Part shown: piece after piece, positions 5,040-63,825 of the stretch | Numbering within the stretch: the stretch's first letter is position 1 | Layout: the number at the start of each line of letters is the position of its first letter | Assembly (NCBI RefSeq): GCF_037392515.1 | Contig: NC_090291.1 | Coordinates: 14,765,001-14,829,000 of the forward strand | Reading direction: 5' to 3' | Length of the DNA: 64,000 nt | From: Haliotis asinina | Taxonomy: Eukaryota; Mollusca; Gastropoda; Lepetellida; Haliotidae | Program-made: the position numbers and the translations under genes | The notes under the pieces: generated by a model | Databases searched by the model: none | Told to the model about the DNA's origin: nothing | What the model saw: only the letters and a program-made list of their open reading frames with translations

Positions 5040-6890
5040 AGATTTCTTATATCTTATCTGATCGTTCCGTTACACAAAGCGGGGGATAGACAGGATCCCA
5101 ATAACTACAGGGGTATTGCCCAACTTGATATACTTAGCAAAGTATTCACAAGTATTCTAGACACACGTATAAAACTCTGGGCTGCAACACAGGACATAAT
5201 CTCCGAATCTCAAGCAGGCTTTAGAGACTACAGTACCATTGACCAAATATTCGTATTAAATGGGATTGTCCATAAGTATATAAGGAAAAAACGCGGAAAA
5301 TTTTATTGTATTTTCGTTGACTTTAAGAAAGCCTTCGACACTGTTGACAGAAATAAGCTTTTATACATACTCCTCAATAATGGATTACATGGTAAAATTA
5401 GCTCTCTTTTACATTCTATGTATACTTGCACAAAAGCAGCGGTTAGATGTACGAAGTACAGTATGTCTGAAATATTTAACCCAACGACTGGAGTACGACA
5501 ATGATGTATCTTATCACCAATTCTATTTAATATGTACATTGATGAATTAGTCAACGACATCATAAATAGCGAGTACAGCGGAGCTTTTATTGATGAGACC
5601 ATAAATGCACTATCAATCCTTCTGTTTGCGGATGATGTAGCTATATTTGGTGACAGCGTTGTGAACCTGCAGAAAAAGATTGATGTCCTAGAAAAGTATT
5701 GTACTAAATGGGGACTGGAAATTAACACAAATAAGACAAAGGTTATAGTCTCCAAAAAAGGTGGCAGAATAGCTAAAACAGAAAAATGGTCAATTGGAAC
5801 AGAGAAACTAGAAACTGTCTCCTATTTTAAGTATCTGGGATTAACGCTGTCTAGTAGAAATGTATTCACAAAAGCTTGCGATGTTTTATGTAAGCAAGCA
5901 GAGAAAGCATTGTTTCCTATTAAGAAATTCATGTACAGATACAAATGAATACCGTTTGATCTTCTCTTCAAAATCTTTGATTGTAAAATCCAACCTATAT
6001 TATTGTATGGAGCAGAAATTTGGGGAACTGTTATCCGCCATGAAATAGAAAAAGTACACTCAAAATTCTGTGAAAACGTACTACACGTGGGTTATCATAC
6101 ACCGAACAAGGCGGCTTTAGCCGAATGTGGGAGACATCCTCTGCGTGTAAACTACATGTCACGAGTTGTTTCATTTTGGGTACGTCTGCTCCGGCAACCG
6201 GATTCACGTTACTCGCGTCGCGTGTACGATATGCTTAAACGTTTAGACGATAACGGGGATGGCAACTGGGCTTCGGCAGTACGGTCAATACTATTTCAAC
6301 ATGGCTTTGGTTATGTTTGGCTATAACAAAACGTTGGGAATTGTGAACTGTTTCTAAATATTTTCAAACAACGTTGTAAAGACATATACTACCAGAAATG
6401 GGCACAGGATATAAGGGACTCCAAATCACTGCACATGTACTCTACTTTCAAATTAGACATTGCTCCAGAACTGTATTTGACTGCACTCTCTTCTCAACAT
6501 CTGCGCAGAGCTTCAACAAAATTTAGATGCGGCTCCACTAATCTGAAAGTAGTTGGGTATAAAAGATCTAAAGACACTGACCTGAGTTTAGCCATGTGTG
6601 ACTAATGCAAATATACACCAGAGGATGAGTGTCATGTGCTGATGAAATGTCCTCTTTATGCAGCAGAAAGAACCGGCTATATACCAAGTATCTATTCCAT
6701 GAACCCGGATATACATAAATTTATACATCTTCTAAATACTAAGAACCATAACATTATGCTCCGTCTTGCAATTTTTGTAAATAAAATCTTGTCCAGGCGC
6801 TCTGCAGTAATTTAACACAAGATGTCATTTTGTACTATTGGCCTCATGGCCATATCTACGAAATAATATGTCTGTCTGTCTGTCTTATAT
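5040..6890 (+). mobile_element. 5'-truncated LINE (non-LTR retrotransposon)
   Basis: The element starts abruptly just upstream of the reverse-transcriptase domain, at about 5040-5058. The frame there reads IVPLHKAGDRQDPNNYRGI, the usual entry to a LINE RT domain. It ends after the ORF with a GGCCTCATGGCC hairpin-like motif and a short (TGTC)n tail at 6868-6885. Endonuclease and ORF1 are absent. The simple-repeat tail rather than poly(A) fits CR1/L2/I-like clades better than L1, but I cannot assign the clade by eye. Confidence 0.85.
5058..6815 (+). pseudogene. LINE reverse transcriptase, four nonsense mutations
   Basis: One frame runs from about 5058 to a stop at 6813-6815 without any frameshift. 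It is broken by stops at 5502, 5946, 6324 and 6603. RT motifs appear in order: NNYRGIAQ, then FVDFKKAFDTVDR (first catalytic Asp), then GVRQ-stop-CILSPILFN, where the Gly codon has become TGA. FADDVAIFGD (the YADD-type box) lies near 5628, followed by the thumb segment FKYLGLTLSS. The C-terminal part ends with a zinc-knuckle-like Cys/His cluster (CD-stop-CKYTPEDECHVLMKCPLY) near 6597-6660. With the 5' part missing it cannot encode a working enzyme. Loss by point mutation only suggests a relatively recent insertion. Confidence 0.85.
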
Positions 6891-25791: not shown

Positions 25792-25938
<147 letters not shown>

Positions 25939-26806
25939 CTAGTATGTCGTCGTGTCGGGACAGAGTGGCTCGTCGCTGAGACATTCAATAACCAAGCTTC
26001 CCTGTCTCGATTCAACTCCGCGCGGTAATAAACAACATTCACTCTCGTAACCAACAGCCTCGACCTTCCACCCTGACCCCAATCAGTCGCTAGTTACCAT
26101 ACAGGGAAAGAGGAAGTTTGTCCAAATCTTTTTTGATACGTTGTCATGTTTATAGAGATATCTGTGTCTTTGTTTAAAATGTCCACCAGTCTCAGTAAGA
26201 TCCTTGTTTTTCCTTCGTGTAGACAGAGGGACGAGTGGGGACATTCTAATGTAGTTATCACTGAATGTATTTCCTCGTGACTTTGTCGAAATCCCTAAAC
26301 TTCCTGATGTGGAAATGGTTTGAACAGTATTTTCTTTGTGAGACACGACCCCTTGTGGCTGACAACGTCCCCATTAGCTTTCTCCAGGCACCCAGACTTC
26401 CTTGTTTACCCACTTCTAATCAAAGATCAAAGAAATAGTTTATTTTCCTGACAATGGCATATATGAATTGTTGATAATCCATTCTTATTCCCCCTTTTAT
26501 AAGATGTAACTAAAACTACATATATTTATCATAATGTTTTGTACTTATTACTCTCAATCATATTGTCAGAAGATATTATCACAACAATACTACAACGTTT
26601 TAGTGGAGCTAGAAAATAATCTGAATTAAAAGGAAGATATATTTTTCTGAAATTTGGTCCAATTACAAATGAACCACGCTGCGTGGAGAAACTTTTCTTC
26701 CTGAAGAGAACATATTGACTTACTTGTGGAGATGAACTTTGTTTATCCTTAACGTTGCTCTCATCTGATTTCTTCCTTACGTTAATGTTCGTTTCTTTCG
26801 TTGCAG
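25939..26806. other. No gene; ends in a splice acceptor
   Basis: The stretch closes with the pyrimidine-rich run TTCGTTTCTTTCGTTGCAG, with the AG at 26805-26806. This makes it the likely 3' end of the intron before the alpha-kinase exon. A minus-strand frame at 26083-26346 is not recognised. Confidence 0.5.
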
Positions 26807-27790
26807 TTGAGGACTTTAATGAGTTGCACTTCTCGCCTGACTGACGTGAGCTGTCCACAAGGATACGCCATGTTTGCCAACACCACGCTGTCATCTAGCC
26901 CGGATGAGAACGGCTGCTGCTATTGGTCCAGCTTCGACCTGACGTCATTTGCCAAAGGTCAACGTCTGAAGGCATACGTTGGCCTTCTGAACGGCAAAGG
27001 ACCTCGGAGTGGGGACCACACCGTCATTAAAATCTTTCGGGATGAAGCCGGGACGGAAGCAATGTGCAATACTGAAATCAAGAAATCCAAAACAGCGCAG
27101 TGGTTTGCAGTGCCATTCTCGGGCATGATCTGTCAAGAGTCCCCAATTCACTTTACTAGTCTCCTGAAGGCATGCATGGATGATGTATGCCTAATGAAGA
27201 ACGCCTTGTCCAGCGGCAGGAAGCTATGTAAGCAGGAATGGGTTTTGATCGAGGAGAAAATTGGCAAGAACTTTCAAAACTTCGTTAGCCATTCCGGAAA
27301 AGCCAATCCGACAACTGCTACCAGAATCCTTGAAGCGTTTGTTCACTTCACGTACCACCATTCCGGCGGGAAACTTGTCGTCTGCGGATTGGAAGGGAGC
27401 TCCGAAGGGGGCAAGACGTATCTGAAGACTCCGACCATCCATTCGGTTACCAAAGAATATGGTGGATGGGATCTGGGAGAAAAGGGAATTAAGATGGTAT
27501 TTGGAAATCATGTCTGTAACGACCTGTGCAGGGGATTCATCACGCCACGACACTTCTCAGATCGCGCGGAGCCTTCCGCCCCGTTCGACCCCGATCTTGT
27601 CAATGGCAGCGAGTTTGAAGCATCCCAGACGCCAAGATACGACCAGTTTTCTCCCTACACATTCGGGCAGTATTTCAACTTCCCTTCCCCTCCGCCCTAC
27701 CAAATGTATCCTGATCTCCGCCTCGCCTGTGCTTTCAACCAAAACGCCACACCCTATCAACCAAAATACCACCATCCAATATCAGCCTGA
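26807..27790 (+). CDS. Alpha-kinase-family protein, probable pseudokinase (last exon)
   Basis: The exon begins after the acceptor at 26806. The first in-frame ATG is at 26819, giving 323 residues to the TGA at 27788-27790; GCCATGTTT at about 26868 has better Kozak context. The fold is that of the alpha-kinase family (eEF2K, vWKA, TRPM7 type). An N-lobe with VGLLNGKG and the lysine strand HTVIKIF lies at about residues 55-73, and the hinge EWVLIEE at about 146. The C-lobe FVHFTYHHSGGKL is at about 175-187, and the zinc-site end GNHVCNDLC at about 229-237. The zinc His and Cys residues are kept. The VCDxQG motif reads VCGLEG, so the catalytic Asp is Gly and the Gln is Glu. The LTDP motif reads LKTP. 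Phosphotransfer is therefore unlikely. A Pro/Tyr/Phe-rich tail of about 70 residues follows the domain. An earlier 5' exon is probable. Confidence 0.85.
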   Translation: MRTLMSCTSRLTDVSCPQGYAMFANTTLSSSPDENGCCYWSSFDLTSFAKGQRLKAYVGLLNGKGPRSGDHTVIKIFRDEAGTEAMCNTEIKKSKTAQWFAVPFSGMICQESPIHFTSLLKACMDDVCLMKNALSSGRKLCKQEWVLIEEKIGKNFQNFVSHSGKANPTTATRILEAFVHFTYHHSGGKLVVCGLEGSSEGGKTYLKTPTIHSVTKEYGGWDLGEKGIKMVFGNHVCNDLCRGFITPRHFSDRAEPSAPFDPDLVNGSEFEASQTPRYDQFSPYTFGQYFNFPSPPPYQMYPDLRLACAFNQNATPYQPKYHHPISA

Positions 27791-39179: not shown

Positions 39180-40845
39180 GTATAATAATGGCATCATCGG
39201 AGAAGATGTGACTGACGAACAAGGGACATGTTTAACCAGAGGTATTATTAATAGACAGGTTTCCATTGTTGGGGTTAATGTAGGTAATGTTAGTCTTAGG
39301 AATATGTAAAGCTGTGCTGTTGAGACAAACGAACCTGGCTTAAATCATTCTGTTACCCCTCATGTTGATGAAGTTCAACAACAGCATCCACCTGCTCTCC
39401 CTAAGCACTTACTGGAATTGTCTGAAAGAAGCCTAACCTTTCCCCAAGCAAAGTCAGATGCCTTATCAGAGTTACTTACTAAGGTGCAAGCTGTCTTTCC
39501 AAAATTATCCAAGGATTGTGGCAGACCAGTCTAGCTGAATACCATATTCACAGATGCAATGCAAGGCCCATCAAATAGTATCCAGGGTGTAAAACCATTT
39601 GGCAAAAGGTAGACTGAAGAAAATGTTCAAGATATTGGAACATGGAGTTATCAAACCACCAAACAGTCCTTATGTAAGCGTTATAGGTTTACGTGAGGAC
39701 GTCTGATGATACCTTGAGGTTTTGCATGACTACAGGTGTTTGAATGAAGAACCAGTAAAAGATGCATGTTCCTATACCAAGGATAGATGAATGTCTCAGT
39801 GCTCTTTTGCCTAAATGCTGTCTAATTACATGCATCTAAACTCTGACTCTGGCAGCTGGACGTTGTGGAAAGTGACAACAAATTGGTCTGTATCACTTTA
39901 CAGTAGTGCCTTTTTGTCTAATAAATCCTCCATCAACACTTCAAAGAATAATTGGAAATCGTTGACATGCAGTGCGTTGAATGTTTAAATCATATAGATC
40001 ATGTAGCTGTTCCATGCAATGGTGCAGCACAGTGATAATGAAGCTGATTCTGCGCAAGGCAGCATCAAGTTGGTGTGGACATTTCCAAAATGGTAACTCA
40101 AGCAGCAACGTTTTTGCTTCATGAACTATTGCACGACAAATATCTCCAGAGAATGAATGCCTCACCAAATCCGGTATTTGTCTGCTCTGTGGATGGAAAA
40201 CTGAGAAAAGGGCATCTGCTGGACAAAAACATAGGCATTCTTCGCACCGCTTGTCAAGACCCAAGTGGGATAAAATTTCTCATCTGAACTCTTCCCTGAA
40301 AACTCTGTTGAGGCAGTGGGAAAGATAATCATATGGGTACACTGTATCGTTAATGAATACGACTAGGACCAAGTTCTGCAGCTCAGATTTAAAGAGGGAT
40401 ACTGTCCTCAGACGCTGCCATGGTATTTCCTCCTCTGAAACGACTTTGGGTAAAGTCAGACAATCGTTGTATTGGCCATACAGGATGATATATATTAACA
40501 TACTGCTCCCTCTCTCTGTGATAGATAACCTGCTAGAAAGTCTCCTACCATCCAGAGTTCACCACTGGGTTACTACTACTAATGAGTAGCTACTGGTGTT
40601 GTTGACTCTCCACAAATTCCAAAATGGTAACAAAAAGTCATTCTGGCGACGGTAGGCCATTTTACAAAGTGGGTAGAAACCACATTACCTGATCAAGAGG
40701 CACAGACAGCCGCCAATGCCTTCACTGACACCTTTATTTGTCGGTATGGATACCACTGCAAGTGCACTCTGATCATGGTCCGAATTTTGAACCTGCTGTG
40801 TTCAATGAATGTGTGACCTGTTCCACATTAATTAAACAAGGCCTG
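39180..40845 (+). mobile_element. Ty3/gypsy retrotransposon remnant (RT and integrase)
   Basis: Plus-strand translations in several frames give the gypsy order. A linker before RT reads LPKHLLELSERSLTF and LLTKVQAVFPKLSKD (39361-39530). The RT entry is VQDILEHGVIKPPNSPY (39625). The next block is LRFC plus VKDACSIPRIDECLSAL-like residues (39715-39815, frameshifted), and then YHFTVVPFCLINPPSTLQR (39890-39945). Integrase core residues are GHFTKWVETTLPDQEAQTA (40656) and, after a frameshift, HSDHGPNFEPAVFNE (40757-40800). Many stops and indels exist, and RNase H is not clear. No LTR was identified. It is dead. Confidence 0.75.
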
Positions 40846-41824
40846 CAAGCCTGAAATAGAAAAGAATATGTTTTTCGCATTAATATCTACAATTTATGCA
40901 GTTAATATATAAAATGTTAAATTTCTGTTAAACCCAGTTCGGCCTAACTGCAGTATTAGTGGGAGGAACATGGAAATGTAGAAAAGGGACTTTACTGAAG
41001 AGAGATTAGTGCAGATAATAGCACTGGAACAGAATATGGCTTTATCCAAATTAATATCTAAAGAAATTGTATTACAAAGGAAAAATTTTAAATGCCCATT
41101 TTTAAATTAAACTCAAATAAACTTAATCAAAACTACTTAAAAAATAAATAAATTTAAGATTGAAACTATTAAGGATGTAGATACCGTGTGGTCTCGCTAT
41201 CAGTAAGAAACAGGTATGAAGGCTCGTCTTAGTAGCAAATCCTTTTGGCTAATTTGCCTGGGAAAGCAAACGACATATCATAACAATTTACAGATAATAT
41301 CCAGTCTTGTGATCTTCGAGTAGTCAGGACACCTATATATTTTGAGACATTTAATACAGCTGAAAATTTGGCTGAAAGCATATTTTCTATTTCTGACTGC
41401 ACTTTAGGCTCATGGCTGCTTGTTGTAAGCACTTCTTCAGTAAACATTATTTCTGCTTGATGAAAGTCTCGAGTCCCTTATTTAACTCCCCCTTGATTAT
41501 TTCATGATCTGGTTGTTAACATATCTGAAAGACGTATGTTGACACTAAGATGAGCTGGATATTAAATCGTCATATGTTCCTGTCCGAGACGTTGACTGAA
41601 CTGGAGAAGCAACGTTTCTGTTGTATATACTTTGGACATTATACTATATGTGTCTTGCTGTCTGTGCCTCCAAGAGCCAATTGAAAAACCATACTGTACG
41701 CGACAATCATGGTGCACTGTGGATGTGGTGCAATGGAGGACGATTGTGGAGGCAATCAACTGTTCTTTGTTAAAGGAATCCGCCGTGTTTCTCTTTATGC
41801 CCAAATAATTATGGCCAGATGATG
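40846..41824. other. No gene seen
   Basis: AT-rich. Minus-strand frames at 41229-41447 and 41562-41804 are not recognised. It separates the gypsy integrase remnant from the tandem array. Confidence 0.4.
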
Positions 41825-43000
41825 GACTACACCCCTGAACCAGCGGTCAAGGCGGGGGAGCTGGTACATCAACGATTGGATCGGTGGGTGGAACTTACCA
41901 TTGTGTGTCACTACGTTATTCACATTCATGAAGACTCCTGTTACTGATATGGCTGAAATATTGCCGATGTGACGTTAAATATTAACTCACTCACTCACTT
42001 TTATTACTGATAGTATTCTATACTATTATTGCACAGACGAAGTCAGCTACCACAGCCAAGACACCTGAGCTAGAAGAAATTGACATCAGTGAAGAAGAAT
42101 CAGTTCTTCGATCCACACATCCAGGTCCTCAGCGTCAACTGACAGTGCAGTTTATTGACCAGGCGGGAGAGAGCGTCCTCAGCATCAACTGACAGTGCAG
42201 TTTATTGACCGGCTGAGGAGGGAGAAGCGTAAACGATATTGAAGATTTGGACAACGTGGATACAGGGGACTGCACAGGATTATTGGCAGGAAGATACCCG
42301 TTCACGAGACCTTAACTCAGGAGAGGAGAAACCCCCAGATACAGACATCCCTGTTGTTCTGGATTCTACCCCGAGACAACACACAGACGATGATTCATCT
42401 GGAGATGTTCCGCCTGCATCACTGCCCTCAAGATCCACAATGGAGAGACATAAGCCAAGATGGATGAGAAGTGAAATGTATGTTTTGTCAGCGCAGCCAC
42501 AACCAGAATGGATGACAAGAGCGCATTATCTTAGCTCTCTATTGGGTGAGGGTATGCTTGAGACTGATCACGATAAGGTCATGGATACACTTCTAAGCAT
42601 CATAGTTTCATCAATAAAGTTTTATATCTAACATTTCAAGTTGTTCTTTTGTTCATTAGTTTTTTATTCCTTTGTTACATATCCAATCACTGGCTCTCGA
42701 CAGTATAGCAGTATAGAGACACACCACGGTGTCACCCACAGGGTAAGTACTTAATATTTTTTATCATGTGTATAATTATCTATGTGTGAGTAAATATCCT
42801 CTCTGTGATCATTCAAGTTGATCACCCACATGATGATTACAACCATTATGTAGTGTGTTATACATTAGTGGTAATGATTTACTTATTATGAACTAGTTAT
42901 GTGTAACTGTACTTGTTGCATGTTTAGATTAATGTAAAACATTCCTTCATATATTACAGGGTGATTGACTGATCATTTGAATGACTCATTATATATACAT
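41825..43000 (+). repeat. Array unit 1, shortened
   Basis: It lacks 105 bp present in the other units (equivalent to 43219-43323), joined at the shared AAG of ACGAAG and AGAAAG. The ATG of ORF1 is also lost (ACTGATAG for ACTGATGG). ORF2 is at 42239-42631. Variants CAGGCGGG, GAGAAGCG, GAGAAACCCCC and AGAGCGCATT are shared only with unit 6. Confidence 0.93.
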
Positions 43001-43185
43001 GACTACACCCCTGAACCAGCGGTCAAGGCGAGGGAGCTGGTACATCAACGATTGGATCGCTGGGTGGAACTTACCATTGTGTGTCACTATGTTATTCACA
43101 TTCATGAAGATTCCTGTTACTGATATGGCTGAAATATTGCCGATGTGACGTTAAATATTAACTCACTCACTCACTTTTATTACTG

Positions 43186-43497
43186 ATGGTATTCTATACT
43201 ATTATTGCACAGACGAAGAAAGAAAAAGGACTCTACATAGCAATTCCAGTAAGTACCATATCCAACCAAGAACCATCAATACCGGAAAGAACAGCCAGGC
43301 CAATTCCAGCTCCTAGGAGAAAGTCAGCTACCACAGCCAAGACACCTGAGCTAGAAGAAATTGACATCAGTGAAGAAGAATCAGTTCTTCGATCCACACA
43401 TCCAGGTCCTCAGCGTCAACTGACAGTGCAGTTTATTGACCAGGAGGGAGAGAGCGTCCTCAGCATCAACTGTCAGTGCAGTTTATTGACCGGCTGA
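43186..43497 (+). CDS. Array ORF1, unknown; possible retroelement Pol tail
   Basis: A 103-residue frame with an ATG, repeated at 44468, 45750, 47032 and (longer, 117 residues) 48314. The acceptor-like TTATTGCACAG falls inside it at codon 9, so the ATG may not be used. The content is a basic proline stretch (ARPIPAPRRKS) followed by an acidic part (ELEEIDISEEE). This style is common in the tail of gypsy Pol after integrase, which fits the gypsy remnant just upstream. That identification is by style, not by a clear homology. The final 20 residues come from a local 49-bp duplication that shifts the frame to a stop. Confidence 0.3.
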   Translation: MVFYTIIAQTKKEKGLYIAIPVSTISNQEPSIPERTARPIPAPRRKSATTAKTPELEEIDISEEESVLRSTHPGPQRQLTVQFIDQEGESVLSINCQCSLLTG

Positions 43498-43520
43498 GGA
43501 GGGAGAAAGCGTAAACGATA

Positions 43521-43913
43521 TTGAAGATTTGGACAACGTGGATACAGGGGACTGCACAGGATTATTGGCAGGAAGATACCCGTTCACGAGACCTTAACTC
43601 AGGAGAGGAGATACCCCCAGATACAGACATCCCTGTTGTTCTGGATTCTACCCCGAGACAACACACAGACGATGATTCATCTGGAGATGTTCCGCCTGCA
43701 TCACTGCCCTCAAGATCCACAATGGAGAGACATAAGCCAAGATGGATGAGAAGTGAAATGTATGTTTTGTCAGCGCAGCCACAACCAGAATGGATGACAA
43801 GAACACATTATCTTAGCTCTCTATTGGGTGAGGGTATGCTTGAGACTGATCACGATAAGGTCATGGATACACTTCTAAGCATCATAGTTTCATCAATAAA
43901 GTTTTATATCTAA
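43521..43913 (+). CDS. Array ORF2, unknown; continues ORF1 in another frame
   Basis: A 130-codon open frame beginning at TTG, with no ATG until codon 67. It is therefore better read as the downstream part of a longer frame broken by indels than as its own gene. Equivalent frames are at 42239, 44803, 46085, 47367 and 48698. The middle is acidic (QHTDDDSSGD), followed by a basic-aromatic block RHKPRWMRSEMYV and a hydrophobic end. A basic KPxWM-type block near the C-terminus is typical of the end of retroelement polyproteins. It ends at TAA about 110 bp before the donor-like site. Confidence 0.3.
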   Translation: MKIWTTWIQGTAQDYWQEDTRSRDLNSGEEIPPDTDIPVVLDSTPRQHTDDDSSGDVPPASLPSRSTMERHKPRWMRSEMYVLSAQPQPEWMTRTHYLSSLLGEGMLETDHDKVMDTLLSIIVSSIKFYI

Positions 43914-44282
43914 CATTTCAAGTTGTTCTTTTGTTCATTAGTTTTTTATTCCTTTGTTACATATCCAATCACTGGCTCTCGACAGTATAGCAGTATAGAG
44001 ACACACCACGGTGTCACCCACAGGGTAAGTACTTAATATTTTTTATCATGTGTATAATTATCTATGTGTGAGTAAATATCCTCTCTGTGATCATTCAAGT
44101 TGATCACCCACATGATGATTACAACCATTATGTAGTGTGTTATACATTAGTGGTAATGATTTACTTATTATGAACTAGTTATGTGTAACTGTACTTGTTG
44201 CATGTTTAGATTAATGTAAAACATTCCTTCATATATTACAGGGTGATTGACTGATCATTTGAATGACTCATTATATATACAT

Positions 44283-45564
44283 GACTACACCCCTGAACCA
44301 GCGGTCAAGGCGAGGGAGCTGGTACATCAACGATTGGATCGCTGGGTGGAACTTACCATTGTGTGTCACTATGTTATTCACATTCATGAAGATTCCTGTT
44401 ACTGATATGGCTGAAATATTGCCGATGTGACGTTAAATATTAACTCACTCACTCACTTTTATTACTGATGGTATTCTATACTATTATTGCACAGACGAAG
44501 AAAGAAAAAGGACTCTACATAGCAATTCCAGTAAGTACCATATCCAACCAAGAACCATCAATACCGGAAAGAACAGCCAGGCCAATTCCAGCTCCTAGGA
44601 GAAAGTCAGCTACCACAGCCAAGACACCTGAGCTAGAAGAAATTGACATCAGTGAAGAAGAATCAGTTCTTCGATCCACACATCCAGGTCCTCAGCGTCA
44701 ACTGACAGTGCAGTTTATTGACCAGGAGGGAGAGAGCGTCCTCAGCATCAACTGTCAGTGCAGTTTATTGACCGGCTGAGGAGGGAGAAAGCGTAAACGA
44801 TATTGAAGATTTGGACAACGTGGATACAGGGGACTGCACAGGATTATTGGCAGGAAGATACCCGTTCACGAGACCTTAACTCAGGAGAGGAGATACCCCC
44901 AGATACAGACATCCCTGTTGTTCTGGATTCTACCCCGAGACAACACACAGACGATGATTCATCTGGAGATGTTCCGCCTGCATCACTGCCCTCAAGATCC
45001 ACAATGGAGAGACATAAGCCAAGATGGATGAGAAGTGAAATGTATGTTTTGTCAGCGCAGCCACAACCAGAATGGATGACAAGAACACATTATCTTAGCT
45101 CTCTATTGGGTGAGGGTATGCTTGAGACTGATCACGATAAGGTCATGGATACACTTCTAAGCATCATAGTTTCATCAATAAAGTTTTATATCTAACATTT
45201 CAAGTTGTTCTTTTGTTCATTAGTTTTTTATTCCTTTGTTACATATCCAATCACTGGCTCTCGACAGTATAGCAGTATAGAGACACACCACGGTGTCACC
45301 CACAGGGTAAGTACTTAATATTTTTTATCATGTGTATAATTATCTATGTGTGAGTAAATATCCTCTCTGTGATCATTCAAGTTGATCACCCACATGATGA
45401 TTACAACCATTATGTAGTGTGTTATACATTAGTGGTAATGATTTACTTATTATGAACTAGTTATGTGTAACTGTACTTGTTGCATGTTTAGATTAATGTA
45501 AAACATTCCTTCATATATTACAGGGTGATTGACTGATCATTTGAATGACTCATTATATATACAT
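44283..45564 (+). repeat. Array unit 3
   Basis: No difference from unit 2 found by eye. ORF1 is at 44468-44779 and ORF2 at 44803-45195. Confidence 0.95.
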
Positions 45565-46846
45565 GACTACACCCCTGAACCAGCGGTCAAGGCGAGGGAG
45601 CTGGTACATCAACGATTGGATCGCTGGGTGGAACTTACCATTGTGTGTCACTATGTTATTCACATTCATGAAGATTCCTGTTACTGATATGGCTGAAATA
45701 TTGCCGATGTGACGTTAAATATTAACTCACTCACTCACTTTTATTACTGATGGTATTCTATACTATTATTGCACAGACGAAGAAAGAAAAAGGACTCTAC
45801 ATAGCAATTCCAGTAAGTACCATATCCAACCAAGAACCATCAATACCGGAAAGAACAGCCAGGCCAATTCCAGCTCCTAGGAGAAAGTCAGCTACCACAG
45901 CCAAGACACCTGAGCTAGAAGAAATTGACATCAGTGAAGAAGAATCAGTTCTTCGATCCACACATCCAGGTCCTCAGCGTCAACTGACAGTGCAGTTTAT
46001 TGACCAGGAGGGAGAGAGCGTCCTCAGCATCAACTGTCAGTGCAGTTTATTGACCGGCTGAGGAGGGAGAAAGCGTAAACGATATTGAAGATTTGGACAA
46101 CGTGGATACAGGGGACTGCACAGGATTATTGGCAGGAAGATACCCGTTCACGAGACCTTAACTCAGGAGAGGAGATACCCCCAGATACAGACATCCCTGT
46201 TGTTCTGGATTCTACCCCGAGACAACACACAGACGATGATTCATCTGGAGATGTTCCGCCTGCATCACTGCCCTCAAGATCCACAATGGAGAGACATAAG
46301 CCAAGATGGATGAGAAGTGAAATGTATGTTTTGTCAGCGCAGCCACAACCAGAATGGATGACAAGAACACATTATCTTAGCTCTCTATTGGGTGAGGGTA
46401 TGCTTGAGACTGATCACGATAAGGTCATGGATACACTTCTAAGCATCATAGTTTCATCAATAAAGTTTTATATCTAACATTTCAAGTTGTTCTTTTGTTC
46501 ATTAGTTTTTTATTCCTTTGTTACATATCCAATCACTGGCTCTCGACAGTATAGCAGTATAGAGACACACCACGGTGTCACCCACAGGGTAAGTACTTAA
46601 TATTTTTTATCATGTGTATAATTATCTATGTGTGAGTAAATATCCTCTCTGTGATCATTCAAGTTGATCACCCACATGATGATTACAACCATTATGTAGT
46701 GTGTTATACATTAGTGGTAATGATTTACTTATTATGAACTAGTTATGTGTAACTGTACTTGTTGCATGTTTAGATTAATGTAAAACATTCCTTCATATAT
46801 TACAGGGTGATTGACTGATCATTTGAATGACTCATTATATATACAT
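45565..46846 (+). repeat. Array unit 4
   Basis: No difference from unit 2 found by eye. ORF1 is at 45750-46061 and ORF2 at 46085-46477. Confidence 0.95.
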
Positions 46847-48128
46847 GACTACACCCCTGAACCAGCGGTCAAGGCGAGGGAGCTGGTACATCAACGATTG
46901 GATCGCTGGGTGGAACTTACCATTGTGTGTCACTATGTTATTCACATTCATGAAGATTCCTGTTACTGATATGGCTGAAATATTGCCGATGTGACGTTAA
47001 ATATTAACTCACTCACTCACTTTTATTACTGATGGTATTCTATACTATTATTGCACAGACGAAGAAAGAAAAAGGACTCTACATAGCAATTCCAGTAAGT
47101 ACCATATCCAACCAAGAACCATCAATACCGGAAAGAACAGCCAGGCCAATTCCAGCTCCTAGGAGAAAGTCAGCTACCACAGCCAAGACACCTGAGCTAG
47201 AAGAAATTGACATCAGTGAAGAAGAATCAGTTCTTCGATCCACACATCCAGGTCCTCAGCGTCAACTGACAGTGCAGTTTATTGACCAGGAGGGAGAGAG
47301 CGTCCTCAGCATCAACTGTCAGTGCAGTTTATTGACCGGCTGAGGAGGGAGAAAGCGTAAACGATATTGAAGATTTGGACAACGTGGATACAGGGGACTG
47401 CACAGGATTATTGGCAGGAAGATACCCGTTCACGAGACCTTAACTCAGGAGAGGAGATACCCCCAGATACAGACATCCCTGTTGTTCTGGATTCTACCCC
47501 GAGACAACACACAGACGATGATTCATCTGGAGATGTTCCGCCTGCATCACTGCCCTCAAGATCCACAATGGAGAGACATAAGCCAAGATGGATGAGAAGT
47601 GAAATGTATGTTTTGTCAGCGCAGCCACAACCAGAATGGATGACAAGAACACATTATCTTAGCTCTCTATTGGGTGAGGGTATGCTTGAGACTGATCACG
47701 ATAAGGTCATGGATACACTTCTAAGCATCATAGTTTCATCAATAAAGTTTTATATCTAACATTTCAAGTTGTTCTTTTGTTCATTAGTTTTTTATTCCTT
47801 TGTTACATATCCAATCACTGGCTCTCGACAGTATAGCAGTATAGAGACACACCACGGTGTCACCCACAGGGTAAGTACTTAATATTTTTTATCATGTGTA
47901 TAATTATCTATGTGTGAGTAAATATCCTCTCTGTGATCATTCAAGTTGATCACCCACATGATGATTACAACCATTATGTAGTGTGTTATACATTAGTGGT
48001 AATGATTTACTTATTATGAACTAGTTATGTGTAACTGTACTTGTTGCATGTTTAGATTAATGTAAAACATTCCTTCATATATTACAGGGTGATTGACTGA
48101 TCATTTGAATGACTCATTATATATACAT
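46847..48128 (+). repeat. Array unit 5
   Basis: No difference from unit 2 found by eye. ORF1 is at 47032-47343 and ORF2 at 47367-47759. Confidence 0.95.
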
Positions 48129-49461
48129 GACTACACCCCTGAACCAGCGGTCAAGGCGAGGGAGCTGGTACATCAACGATTGGATCGCTGGGTGGAACTT
48201 ACCATTGTGTGTCACTATGTTATTCACATTCATGAAGATTCCTGTTACTGATATGGCTGAAATATTGCCGATGTGACGTTAAATATTAACTCACTCACTC
48301 ACTTTTATTACTGATGGTATTCTATACTATTATTGCACAGACGAAGAAAGAAAAAGGACTCTACATAGCAATTCCAGTAAGTACCATATCCAACCAAGAA
48401 CCATCAATACCGGAAAGAACAGCCAGGCCAATTCCAGCTCCTAGGAGAAAGTCAGCTACCACAGCCAAGACACCTGAGCTAGAAGAAATTGACATCAGTG
48501 AAGAAGAATCAGTTCTTCGATCCACACATCCAGGTCCTCAGCGTCAACTGACAGTGCAGTTTATTGACCAGGAGGGAGAGAGCGTCCTCAGCATCAACTG
48601 TCAGTGCAGTTTATTGACCAGGCGGGAGAGAGCGTCCTCAGCATCAACTGACAGTGCAGTTTATTGACCGGCTGAGGAGGGAGAAGCGTAAACGATATTG
48701 AAGATTTGGACAACGTGGATACAGGGGACTGCACAGGATTATTGGCAGGAAGATACCCGTTCACGAGACCTTAACTCAGGAGAGGAGAAACCCCCAGATA
48801 CAGACATCCCTGTTGTTCTGGATTCTACCCCGAGACAACACACAGACGATGATTCATCTGGAGATGTTCCGCCTGCATCACTGCCCTCAAGATCCACAAT
48901 GGAGAGACATAAGCCAAGATGGATGAGAAGTGAAATGTATGTTTTGTCAGCGCAGCCACAACCAGAATGGATGACAAGAGCGCATTATCTTAGCTCTCTA
49001 TTGGGTGAGGGTATGCTTGAGACTGATCACGATAAGGTTATGGATACACTTCTAAGCATCATAGTTTCATCAATAAAGTTTTATATCTAACATTTCAAGT
49101 TGTTCTTTTGTTCATTAGTTTTTTATTCCTTTGTTACATATCCAATCACTGGCTCTCGACAGTATAGCAGTATAGAGACACACCACGGTGTCACCCACAG
49201 GGTAAGTACTTAATATTTTTTATCATGTGTATAATTATCTATGTGTGAGTAAATATCCTCTCTGTGATCATTCAAGTTGATCACCCACATGATGATTACA
49301 ACCATTATGTAGTGTGTTATACATTAGTGGTAATGATTTACTTAATATGGACTAGTTATGTGTAACTGTACTTGTTGCATGTTTAGATTAATGTAAAACA
49401 TTCCTTCATATATTACAGGGTGATTGACTGATCATTTGAATGACTCATTATATATACATGA
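48129..49461 (+). repeat. Array unit 6, lengthened
   Basis: The first half matches the inner units. Near 48600 one more copy of the roughly 49-bp mini-repeat (GTCCTCAGCATCAACTG...) is present, bearing the unit-1 variants CAGGCGGG and CTGACAG. From there on it follows unit 1 (GAGAAGCG, GAGAAACCCCC, AGAGCGCATT). It also has private changes (AAGGTTATGG, TTAATATGGACTAG). ORF1 is at 48314-48667 and ORF2 at 48698-49090. Confidence 0.93.
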
Positions 49462-49570
49462 TGTCGGAATAGACGTCACCTCACAAACGTATCCACAGAT
49501 CGCCCCCCCCCTGCAACACTATATTATCGCACAGGCTTATTTTTTCATGTTACCAATGGATATTCTAGTA

Positions 49571-49654: not shown

Positions 49655-51273
49655 CTAGTATTCAAAGCCAAATATTTTCACACATCCTGCTGAAGTGACA
49701 TACAACAGCCCGTCATTATCCCGACAGATACCACTAGGATACCATAGTCCATCCTTACGAGTGAGGACGTCTTTGACAAACTGTCCCGATGCTGTCAGCA
49801 GAATGACCTTGTGGGAGCCACTGTCTACAAGCAGGATGTCTCCTGTGCTGGTTGTTGTGATACCACAAGGACACATCAAGGACATGTCTTCTCTGGGTGT
49901 GTAGGTGAAAATAGTTTGTCCGTCAAGGGTCGCAGATACCAAGGATTTTACTCCCCCTTCACTGACTACCACGTTTTTTCCCCTCATAACATGAATATAA
50001 AATGGGTTCCTTATCACACCTGTGCTGACTAATTTCAGAACATTTCCTTCCATATCCAGTATATCAACAGAGGCAGGAGAGTCGAATGTTCCTGTTACGA
50101 GCTGTGCAGGGTTCAGGAAGGCTAAACCACGATACTTCCTCTTTGTTTTCACAGTTGACTGCAATGTAGGTTCAGGGTCAAAGTTGATGAACGCTATTTG
50201 ATGTCTGTCTGGCAGCGTAATGGCTGCCTTACTCTCACCCACCTTAGCTATTCCCATTGGCTGAGAAGGTAGTTTAAGGTGTTTTTTCAAGGATGGTGTC
50301 TTTGGAACATAGCGTGTGCTGAGTCTGCAACTTACATAATCTATCACAGCAATTACCCTCATGGCGTTGTTAACAAATACTACATCACGCAAATCGGGAA
50401 ACATGTCTCCTCTAAAATCAATTCTTTCCAGAAGAATAGGGGAGAACCTCCGGTCACTGAGACCACCAACGACTTTGACCTCCCCCAGCTTGACACTATC
50501 CACAAATCTCATCAGCCTATATGTGTCGTTTACGAAGATCATGTTGGGTGTTTCTGGTCTCTTGTCCTCTAAGATATCTTCATCTATGGAAGCTCCATCA
50601 ACTGACGTATACACAGCAAGCATGTCTGCTACACAGTCTGACGTCACAGCTTTGTCTATGAGCTCAAAACGCTGCTGTTCCATATGGAGGTCACTCTCCT
50701 GGGCCGTTCTGTAGGCTTTCCTTTCTTGGACAAGGTTTTCAGTAAGTTTGTCAATGCGATCCAGAAGATACTTTTCCTTTCTCAAAAGAATGTCCGTAGC
50801 TAGCATACGTACTCTCCTCACTTCATCTTTCATTTCTTATGCACTAGTCATTAGTTGTTCGATTTTTATGTTCGTCGATGAAATATTGTCAGTGTAAGTT
50901 TGCATCTTCTTCTTTCGGATCATTGTTTCATTGACCAGAGCTTCTTTGACCAGCGGCATCATGGCATCAATGGTTTCAACATGATCACACTTCCGGTGTT
51001 TGATGCTGCAGCATACGGTACATACGGCCACCCTGCAGTCTTTACAGAACAGTTTGATCTTTTCTTCTTTGTGAATTGTGCACATGAAGCTCCGTACCTT
51101 TCGTTTTCTGCTGCTATGGATGCGTACATCAAACACTTCATGGTCACGCAGCAACGGCATCTTCTTATGGAGCTTGAGACACCCACCACAGAAGACTTCT
51201 TCACAAGTGGTGCACCACATTGTACCTGGGGTTGTCTGTCCATCTTGTTTGCACACGCTACACGCATCAGCAT
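49655..51273 (-). pseudogene. TRIM-type B-box/NHL protein with one in-frame stop
   Basis: On the minus strand a splice acceptor (GATTTTCAG, AG at 51275-51274) opens an exon read as DADACSVCKQDGQ. The first zinc module, C-x2-C ... CTTCEEVFCGGC ... H, spans about residues 4-40. A B-box 2 follows (CTIHKEEKIKLFCKDCRVAV then CCSIKHRKCDH). Next is a coiled coil. A TAA at 50837-50839 then interrupts the coiled coil. One codon later the same frame goes on (MKDEVRRVRM) for 392 residues, finishing the coiled coil and forming an NHL-like beta-propeller (CGITTTSTGDILLVDSGS and PSGICRDNDGLLYV near the end). Such proteins are usually E3 ubiquitin ligases with a RING in an earlier exon, which I did not find. 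The rest of the frame is clean, so the stop may be a recent mutation, an allele, a sequence error or, less likely, read-through. Confidence 0.85.
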
Positions 51274-51339
51274 CTGAAAATCCAAAACCTGTTTGAATTT
51301 TCCGTGTTATTTATTACTCATGTGTAAGTCATTGCTATT
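51274..51339 (-). other. 3' end of intron upstream of the TRIM exon
   Basis: The pyrimidine-rich run before the CAG acceptor on the minus strand. The same sequence reappears beside the second TRIM copy at 63.82 kb. Confidence 0.5.
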
Positions 51340-53441: not shown

Positions 53442-53583
53442 ATACGTGCAGTGCATGCTGACGGTGGCGTGAAATCAGTGGGGCTACTGTTTAACACGTG
53501 TCTCGTGGAGCGATTTAGTTCAGCAAGACACCATCACGACACGAGTCATTTTTTTAATATTTGCAGATTTCAGTTAGATTAGC

Positions 53584-54426
53584 ATGTCCATGTTAGGGAA
53601 GCATGGACAAATTGTTCATGCTCAGGCCAGTGATAACAGTGTTAACATTTATATGGAAAAGACATGTGCAACAAAAGCAGACGCTATTTCAAAATGTGGC
53701 CTTGCTATTGGTCTTTCCCAGGCACCTTTAAAACGCATTAAAGCGGGAGGTGATAGGGGTGCGAGTAGGCCTACAGTTACTAGTCCCACAAAGTTGCGAA
53801 AACCCAAAACTTTAATGCTCAAACTTGATGGTTTGACCGGCGTGCAGTCCGTCAATTTGTACAAAGTTTATATGGAGTACAAAAGCCAATTGCCTACTCT
53901 AAATGTAATATATGACATGGCAAGAATTCAATTGCACTACCAGGATTCAAAGGAAAGTTTTCGAAAAAATCTGAAAAACATGGAGTTTACGTGGCACAAA
54001 ACGCAGTCAAATCATAAGGTTTTCACAGGTCAAAAAGACATCTTTGCAAAGCGTTTGAAATACTTGCGTAGAATAAAAAAATACCGAGACAAAAATCGTA
54101 CAATCATCTTTATCGATGAAACATGGTTTCATGTACACCACATTGTCCCAAAATGTTGGCAACTTGATGGTGAGGTTGTAATAAATGGGGTTCAGCCTCC
54201 ATCTGGCACCGGACCTCGGCTTATTGCGGTTCATGCCGGGTTCGAAAATGGTTTTGTACCAAATACTTTACTTGTATTTGAGTCAAAGCTCAAATCAGCA
54301 GATTATCATGACGAGATGAATTTTGAATGGGAAATAGCAGTAGAAAAGGAAATTGACAAAATCGTGATCGATCTAGGACTGACAAGTAATTCAGACACCG
54401 AGACCGATTCAGAAAGTGACGACTAA
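53584..54426 (+). pseudogene. DDE transposase, internally deleted (IS630/Tc1-like)
   Basis: A 280-codon frame from ATG at 53584. A helix-turn-helix-like N-terminal region spans about residues 25-140. It is followed by FRKNLKNMEFTWHK and a catalytic-core start RTIIFIDETWFHVHH (first Asp) at about 177-191. The fold continues through GTGPRLIAVHAGFENGFVP and ADYHDEMNFE at about 254-263. At that point a full-length member would continue for about 150 residues with the second Asp and the third acidic residue. Here it jumps to an end-type sequence (a short DLGL stretch followed by Ser/Asp-rich TETDSESDD). The deletion keeps the frame open, so the ORF looks intact but has only one of three catalytic acids. 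It could still bind its inverted ends. Confidence 0.75.
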
Positions 54427-60329: not shown

Positions 60330-60441
60330 CGCAGCTTGAGCTGGCAAGGTACAAAGACCATCTCAAACCTATGGACCCGATACAACAATACTGGGAGTGT
60401 TAATGCCAGACCTAGGTCTGGTCGACCTGTAGCACGACAAT
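60330..60441 (+). mobile_element. Tc1-like transposase N-terminal fragment
   Basis: The plus frame through 60336 reads KTISNLWTRYNNTGSVNARP followed by RSGRPVARQ. This is the end of the Tc1 helix-turn-helix domain and the GRPR linker (T-ISNLW-RY--TGSV--RPRSGRP is the usual pattern). The fragment then merges into the 22-bp minisatellite. No catalytic part follows. Confidence 0.7.
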
Positions 60442-61042
60442 GGTCGACGTGGATCACGACAATGGTCGACGTGGATCACGACAATGGTCGACCTGTAGCA
60501 CGACAATGGTCGACGTGGATCACGACAATGGTCGACGTGGATCACGATAATGGTCGACGTGGATCACGATACTGGTCGACGTGGATCACGATAGTGCTCG
60601 ACCTGTAGCACGACAATGGTCGACGTGGATCACGATAGTGCTCGACCTGTATCACGACAATGGTCGACGTGGATCACGATAATGGTCGACGTGGATCACG
60701 ATACTGGTCGACGTGGATCACGATAGTGCTCGACCTGTAGCACGACAATGGTCGACGTGGATCACGACAATGGTCGACGTGGATCACGATAATGGTCGAC
60801 GTGGATCACGATAGTGCTCGACCTGTAGCACGACAATGGTCGACGTGGATCACGACAATGCTCGACCTGGAGCACGACAATGGTCGACGTGGATCACGAT
60901 AATGGTCGACGTGGATCACGATAATGCTCGACCTGGAGCACGACAATGGTCGACGTGGATCACGACAATGGTCGACGTGGATCACGATAATGGTCGACGT
61001 GGATCACGATAATGCTCGACCTTGAGCACGAGAATGCTCGAC
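60420..61042 (+). repeat. 22-bp minisatellite, about 28 units
   Basis: Unit GGTCGACGTGGATCACGACA plus AT, with variants GGTCGACCTGTAGCACGACA and GCTCGACCTGGAGCACGACA arranged in a mosaic. Most units hold a GTCGAC site. The first unit (60420) still lies in frame with the GRP codons of the Tc1 fragment, so the array seems to have grown from that sequence. Confidence 0.95.
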
Positions 61043-63142: not shown

Positions 63143-63329
63143 AGTGACTTTTGACAATCAAGTTATTTCTGAATTCTTAGCAGTTGTCATGCTTATATGG
63201 TGCATAGCGTATGGTGACACTAACATGTAACACGTGAGCGTAGGCCATTGCATGTAGCTGGAATATTTCCCTCATGTATTGCAGCCCCTCTCTTATACCG
63301 AGGATGAACAGACTGCGGTCTCTGTGGTT

Positions 63330-63825
63330 TCATGACACTTCCGGTGTTTGATGCTGCAGCATATAGTACACATTGCCATCCTGCAGTCTTTACAGAACAG
63401 TTGTATCGTCTTATGACTACATATGATGCCTTGCCATAGAAAGTGCCAGGTTCACTGTCTGTTTGGACCCTTGCTTCGTTCACCAGAGCTTCTTTAACAA
63501 ACGGCATCATGGCATGATACGGAACATCCCACTTCCGATGTCTGTTGCTGCAGCATACAGTACACATTGCCATCCTGCGATCCTTACAGAAGAGTTTTAT
63601 CGTCTCGTCTGTGTGAATTGTGAACATGAAGCTACATACTTTGGGTTTCCTGTTGCCATGAACACGTACATCACTCACTTTTATGATCACGTGTTAGTAA
63701 CAACCTCTTGTGGAACTTAAGACACTCATCACAGAAGACTTCTTCACGAGTGGTGCACCACATTGTACCTGGGGTTGTCTGCCCATCTCCTTTGCACACG
63801 CTACACGCATCAACATCTAAATATC
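63330..63825 (-). pseudogene. Second, decayed copy of the TRIM B-box exon
   Basis: 63680-63825 matches 51130-51273 closely (CAGAAGACTTCTTCACGAGT, GGTGCACCACATTGTACCTG and GCACACGCTACACGCATCA). The first zinc module is still readable on the minus strand, although CTTREE has replaced CTTCEE, losing a Cys. The B-box 2 part is present twice: 63529-63640 and again, about 190 bp further along, at 63335-63412 (CACTTCCGGTGTTTGATGCT, CATTGCCATCCTGCAGTCTT). The frame is broken, and the coiled-coil and propeller are absent from the expected place. The intron-side sequence before the exon is also duplicated. Confidence 0.85.

Follow-up and report, generated by a model that had tools for sequence, protein, structure and literature searches.

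Positions 41825 to 49461 of the DNA analyzed here, a 64,000-nucleotide stretch of Haliotis asinina (NCBI RefSeq assembly GCF_037392515.1, contig NC_090291.1, positions 14,765,001 to 14,829,000 of the forward strand) that we call the window, hold six head-to-tail copies of one unit, all on the plus strand. This array is, with high confidence, the tail of a long-dead Ty3/Gypsy long terminal repeat (LTR) retrotransposon, comprising the end of pol and a partial LTR, that was tandemly amplified in place. The open frames and splice-like sites recurring in its units are leftovers of the retrotransposon. A first-pass annotation, based on the sequence alone, had proposed a recently amplified retroelement tail, a gene with repeated exons, or a new macrosatellite; our analysis favored the first of these and neither of the other two.

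The six copies on one strand were confirmed by a self-comparison of the region from 41 to 50.5 kb, in which the top lag was 1282 (72% matching positions), followed by 2564 and 3846. Inside 41.8-48.2 kb, 85% of the positions matched at lag 1282 versus 23-30% at six other lags tried; the array is far beyond chance. The exact 1,282-bp spacing described in the first-pass annotation held for four of the five steps but not for the first, which is 1,176 bp owing to two deletions (105 bp and 1 bp) in copy 1 (Table 1). Copies 2 to 5 were found to have zero differences over 5,128 bp, whereas copy 6, which is continuous with the native LTR end, differs from them by 6 substitutions, a 50-bp insertion (an internal repeat), and a 1-bp deletion. 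Four mid-unit variants are common to copies 1 and 6 and absent from copies 2 to 5, and in the left part, copies 2 to 6 are alike and copy 1 differs. This pattern is the mosaic expected from unequal exchange, and the identity of copies 2 to 5 suggests either recency or homogenization, so that the recent amplification proposed at first is plausible rather than observed.

Pol and LTR origin of the unit

Two repeated open frames per unit had been reported, and both were recovered. The second frame (132 amino acids [aa]) is present in all six copies; the first, measured stop to stop, has 111 aa in copies 2 to 5, 68 aa in copy 1, and 125 aa in copy 6. Although Pfam gave no match for the 132-aa frame itself, a genome search with 60 aa near its end found 49 matching places, namely, the six copies and 43 others. 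We inspected the frame ends at six of the 43 places (L056, L057, L058, L061, L064, and L068). In all five long-frame relatives (L057, L058, L061, L064, and L068; 1,344-1,514 aa), the match lay at the end of the open frame, which is broken in L056. Two integrase domains, rve (core) and Integrase_H2C2 (zinc-binding), were detected in the C-terminal third of both L061 and L064, and the core alone was detected in L056. L070, which by its coordinates lies inside the open frame of L061, encodes reverse transcriptase (RT) and RNase H, and its best relative among solved structures was the Ty3 Gag-Pol polyprotein (E 5e-79). The relatives with the matching C-terminus thus have integrase (L061, L064) downstream of RT/RNase H (L070). 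The second frame is 43% identical to the end of L061 over 69 aa.

The first frame was connected to pol through another relative, L035, in which an integrase remnant (rve at E 3.4e-5, which does not reach the Pfam cut-off) is followed by one 133-aa open frame. This frame matches both window frames, the first with 74% identity over 35 aa (E 5e-15) and the second with E 4e-13, as well as L064 (E 1e-9) and L061 (E 1e-7). Since L035 has the sequence of both frames in one continuous frame, the two frames of each unit are one pol tail split by a frameshift. This tail is all that survives of pol in the window copy of the element.

The last ~400 bp of the unit, including the 217-bp stretch between the splice-like sites, recurs dispersed in the genome at roughly 70-90% identity. 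A genome search with one such locus, L031, returned at least 35 matching stretches: the query, 12 stretches in the array (two in each copy), and 22 stretches spread over 17 further places, the last group being 67-94% identical (76-83% for the five longest). The family looks old and small, its place counts being lower bounds. LTR retrotransposons are recognized by TG...CA ends and a short target duplication of 4-6 bp, and both features were found among the dispersed loci (TGTAACAG...CA). The LTR ends are TGTAAC...CA. Among the alignments of whole 10-kb loci, those of L031 with L032, L035, and L038 stop at or within 3 bp of TGTAACAG, and those of L034-L036, L036-L037, L034-L038, L037-L038, and L036-L038 stop at or within 3 bp of the terminal CA; others end earlier. 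Exact 4-bp flanking duplications were present in two (L031 and L036) of the six LTR loci with a 5′ end. Relative to L031, L032, and L038, ~400-440 bp are missing between two parts of the LTR in the window copies.

The donor/acceptor pair noted in the first-pass annotation, GTAAGT...TTACAG enclosing 217 bp, occurs in all six copies, and GTAAGT is found a second time in each unit and 25 times in the window. Because the 217-bp stretch recurs within dispersed LTRs, it is LTR sequence. TTACAG is retained in all six relatives that reach the site (L031, L032, L034, L036, L037, and L038; the position in L031 was compared after leaving out a short interspersed nuclear element [SINE]), and the donor GT is retained in all five aligned relatives (L031, L032, L033, L036, and L038), with the full GTAAGT in L033 only. 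Given this retention, the stretch may be an intron within the LTR. It is exceedingly improbable, however, that the LTR pieces still work as promoters and poly(A) sites and that the 217-bp stretch is a true intron, with the six units giving a ladder of spliced noncoding RNAs antisense towards the neighboring TRIM/NHL-like gene.

Each unit also contains, close to its start, the tail of a dispersed SINE-like repeat. The SINE-like region alone was matched by 34 of the 56 genome stretches among the matches listed, at 83-100% identity.

Table 1. Features of the array and its left flank (positions in the window)
Feature	Position	Strand	Description
Copy 1	41825..43000	+	1,176 bp; 10 substitutions, 105-bp deletion, and 1-bp deletion relative to copies 2-5
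Copy 2	43001..44282	+	1,282 bp; identical to copies 3-5
Copy 3	44283..45564	+	1,282 bp
Copy 4	45565..46846	+	1,282 bp
Copy 5	46847..48128	+	1,282 bp
Copy 6	48129..49461	+	1,331 bp plus 2 breakpoint-ambiguous bases, GA
First open frame, copy 2	43162..43497	+	111 aa, stop to stop; holds pol-tail remnant
Second open frame, copy 2	43515..43913	+	132 aa; remnant of extreme C-terminus of Ty3/Gypsy pol
Partial LTR, copy 2	43882..44282	+	Lacks first ~18 bp and an internal stretch
217-bp stretch GTAAGT...TTACAG, copy 2	44025..44241	+	Inside LTR; putative intron of the first-pass annotation
Tail of dispersed SINE-like repeat (CTCACTCACTCACT), copy 3	44393..44461	+	Same place in every copy; "SINE-like" by eye
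LTR part of copy 6	49059..49518	+	Passes array end to native LTR 3′ end (CCCCTGCAACA)
Remnant of another Gypsy-type pol	39310..40851	+	RT and integrase pieces, heavily frameshifted; left of array

Formation of the array and alternative explanations

To the right of the array, the sequence can be aligned to relatives towards the LTR end at 49518. This flank is the native continuation of the LTR, so the array arose at its present site from the end of a single decayed element. The Ty3/Gypsy LTR retrotransposon that once lay here would have left its pol end and 3′ LTR, the former already frameshifted and with an internal 50-bp duplication, the latter already short by about 400 bp; a SINE-like element lies just upstream of the pol end. 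A ~1.28-kb segment that began shortly before the SINE-like tail and ended inside the LTR would then have been duplicated head-to-tail. The junction between copies (TATACAT followed by GACTACACC) and the two outer edges have only GA (2 bp) in common; end joining or template switching would therefore fit as the first duplication step. Unequal crossing-over between copies would subsequently have produced six copies and homogenized the inner ones, which would account for the identity of the inner copies and the divergence of the outer ones. No function of the array is indicated.

Several observations weigh against this reconstruction. Compared directly with L061 and L064, the first frame gave no significant match (E 0.04 and 0.14, respectively), its link to pol running via L035. 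The first ~75 bp of the unit had no match outside the array in the whole-unit genome search. The LTR 3′ ends were chosen by eye, the L034-L037 alignment passes the presumed LTR end by 20 bp, and the flanking duplication has one mismatch in L034 and L038 and is lacking in L032, while L035 has no clear 3′ end. A search of the window outside the array with the LTRs of eight loci (E 1e-5, >90 bp) failed to find a 5′ LTR of the array's element, and the pol remnant on the left (Table 1) is no evidence for its body. An intact gag-pol between two LTRs was not found, no separate search for gag having been made. Since the 5′ LTR was not found and the left-hand pol remnant belongs to another family, we refer to a fragment rather than an element.

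The rejection of that left remnant as the body of the array's element relied on its genome matches, which place it in a different Gypsy family. It consists of two RT matches and one integrase match in order on the plus strand, with 31.2, 28.5, and 26.9 bits, scores that were reached by 1, 1, and 3 of 200 dinucleotide shuffles. The RT-side and integrase pieces have the same four elements as their best genome matches, and outside the window, none of the matches lies near any of the 49 pol-end places (compared by eye). When L035 and L037 were compared at the DNA level with the sequence to the left of the array, the only matches were 14-19 bp long.

A host gene built of repeated coding exons, with the 217-bp stretch as an intron spliced between units, could explain why open frames and a consensus-like donor/acceptor pair occur in all six copies, and the retention of TTACAG and the donor GT among the dispersed LTR relatives is also in its favor. 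Such a gene would have a conserved coding frame joined by splicing. However, both frames are pieces of one frameshifted pol tail, six near-identical pol tails with stops between the frames would give no single protein, and the intron-like stretch is LTR, the segment that includes it having about the same identity to L031 (86.8%) as the neighboring LTR segment (84.5%). We consider this gene extremely unlikely. Only slightly better placed, and still very unlikely, is a new macrosatellite family of the genome, which the long unit, its head-to-tail order, and the identical inner copies would fit. Satellites and macrosatellites form long arrays, usually at several genomic sites, whereas six copies at one site amount to a local tandem duplication. 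Two genome searches, which scored only the best candidates (40 of 387 in one and 13 of 13 in the other) and whose counts are lower bounds, did not find the full unit elsewhere in the assembly, the other places among the matches listed corresponding to LTR, pol, or SINE-like parts only. The first-pass annotation had also considered that the unit might be an ordinary dispersed repeat, and this is true of its LTR and SINE-like parts but not of the whole tandem unit.

The lack of any difference among copies 2 to 5 would likewise be consistent with an assembly artefact in which fewer real copies were expanded to six. Against this, each of the two outer copies has variants of its own, and the array comprises three different kinds of copy whatever their number; the window contains no N, and the assembly, with 159 contigs for 1.14 Gb, is contiguous. 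An array of 7.6 kb is also within ordinary long-read reach, and we find such an artefact unlikely. Insertion of the array as a concatemer that had formed beforehand, on a rolling or extrachromosomal circle, was suggested by GATG at both outer edges (41821-41824 and 49460-49463), which can be read as a 4-bp target duplication. We rejected this candidate as highly improbable because the right flank is native LTR that aligns in relatives towards the 3′ end, with no insertion edge there. Amplification in place of a dead Ty3/Gypsy fragment is the reading that we retain.

Surroundings of the array

The array is surrounded by the debris of old retrotransposons. A TRIM/NHL-like frame on the minus strand ends 136 bp beyond the LTR. 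The corresponding gene (49655-51310, minus strand) has an NHL repeat on a 393-aa part (Pfam E 6e-7) and a B-box part recognized by eye, and it is interrupted by a single in-frame stop at 50837; another TRIM/NHL-like fragment was noticed by eye at 63220-63693 (minus strand). Among the other features of the window are an open frame with an alpha-kinase domain at 26786-27787 (plus strand; Pfam PF02816, E 2.5e-29) and an RT fragment at 5040-5948 (plus strand; Pfam RVT_1 on 5040-5501, E 7e-13), in which a stop is followed by another open stretch. A 282-aa open frame at 53578-54426 (plus strand) had no significant Pfam match and is, from its appearance, presumably similar to a DDE transposase. Simple repeats include a perfect TATT array at 25793-25937 (36.2 copies, 100% matches) and a 22-bp minisatellite at 60419-61042 (28.4 copies, 87% matches).

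Elsewhere in the genome, five same-strand integrase matches of one Gypsy-type family were found at C13:35684517-35720336, the last four spaced 8,803 bp apart as if whole elements stood in tandem. Three Gypsy pol ends in a row, ~8.0 kb apart, at C1:17264233-17280454 and two such ends 7.6 kb apart at C5:67953450-67961236 are likewise arranged like elements in tandem.

Comparison with known repeats

The array is a clear early-stage case of a dead retrotransposon fragment seeding a tandem repeat: it is a single site with few copies, of which the inner ones are identical and the outer ones divergent. It also cautions against taking open frames and splice-like sites that recur in every unit as proof of a gene. 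By itself, it settles no long-standing question.

The Dan clade of LTR retrotransposons belongs to BEL/Pao. One passage of PMC6238403 names Gypsy as the most abundant LTR superfamily in mollusc genomes, and its passage on Haliotis concerns the Dan clade. Among the titles and abstract openings covered by a literature search, none described this array, either in Haliotis or in another mollusc. Tandem repeats arising from the 3′ untranslated region (UTR), LTR, and gag regions of LTR retrotransposons are compiled in Table 1 of PMC9659126, and PMC7004042 reports that 9 of 11 Lathyrus satellites were derived from short arrays inside LTR retrotransposons.

Like Ty3/Gypsy LTR retrotransposons, the family to which the array belongs has a pol C-terminus following integrase, a relative whose RT/RNase H is nearest to yeast Ty3 among solved structures, TG...CA termini, and exact 4-bp flanking duplications at two of six loci. 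Unlike them, the window copy is a decayed fragment with broken frames and an internally deleted LTR, to which no RT, 5′ LTR, or gag (the last without a separate search) could be assigned. The array is a new, modest case of the well-documented tandem repeats born from LTR retrotransposons. PisTR-A of pea, CRM1TR/CRM4TR of maize, Sobo of a potato relative, and MALREP of swamp eel share with it the conversion of an LTR-element segment into a tandem repeat. In contrast to these, the array has six copies at one locus and forms no genome-wide satellite, and compared with LTR-derived satellites, its unit spans the pol tail, LTR, and SINE-like tail rather than the UTR or LTR alone.

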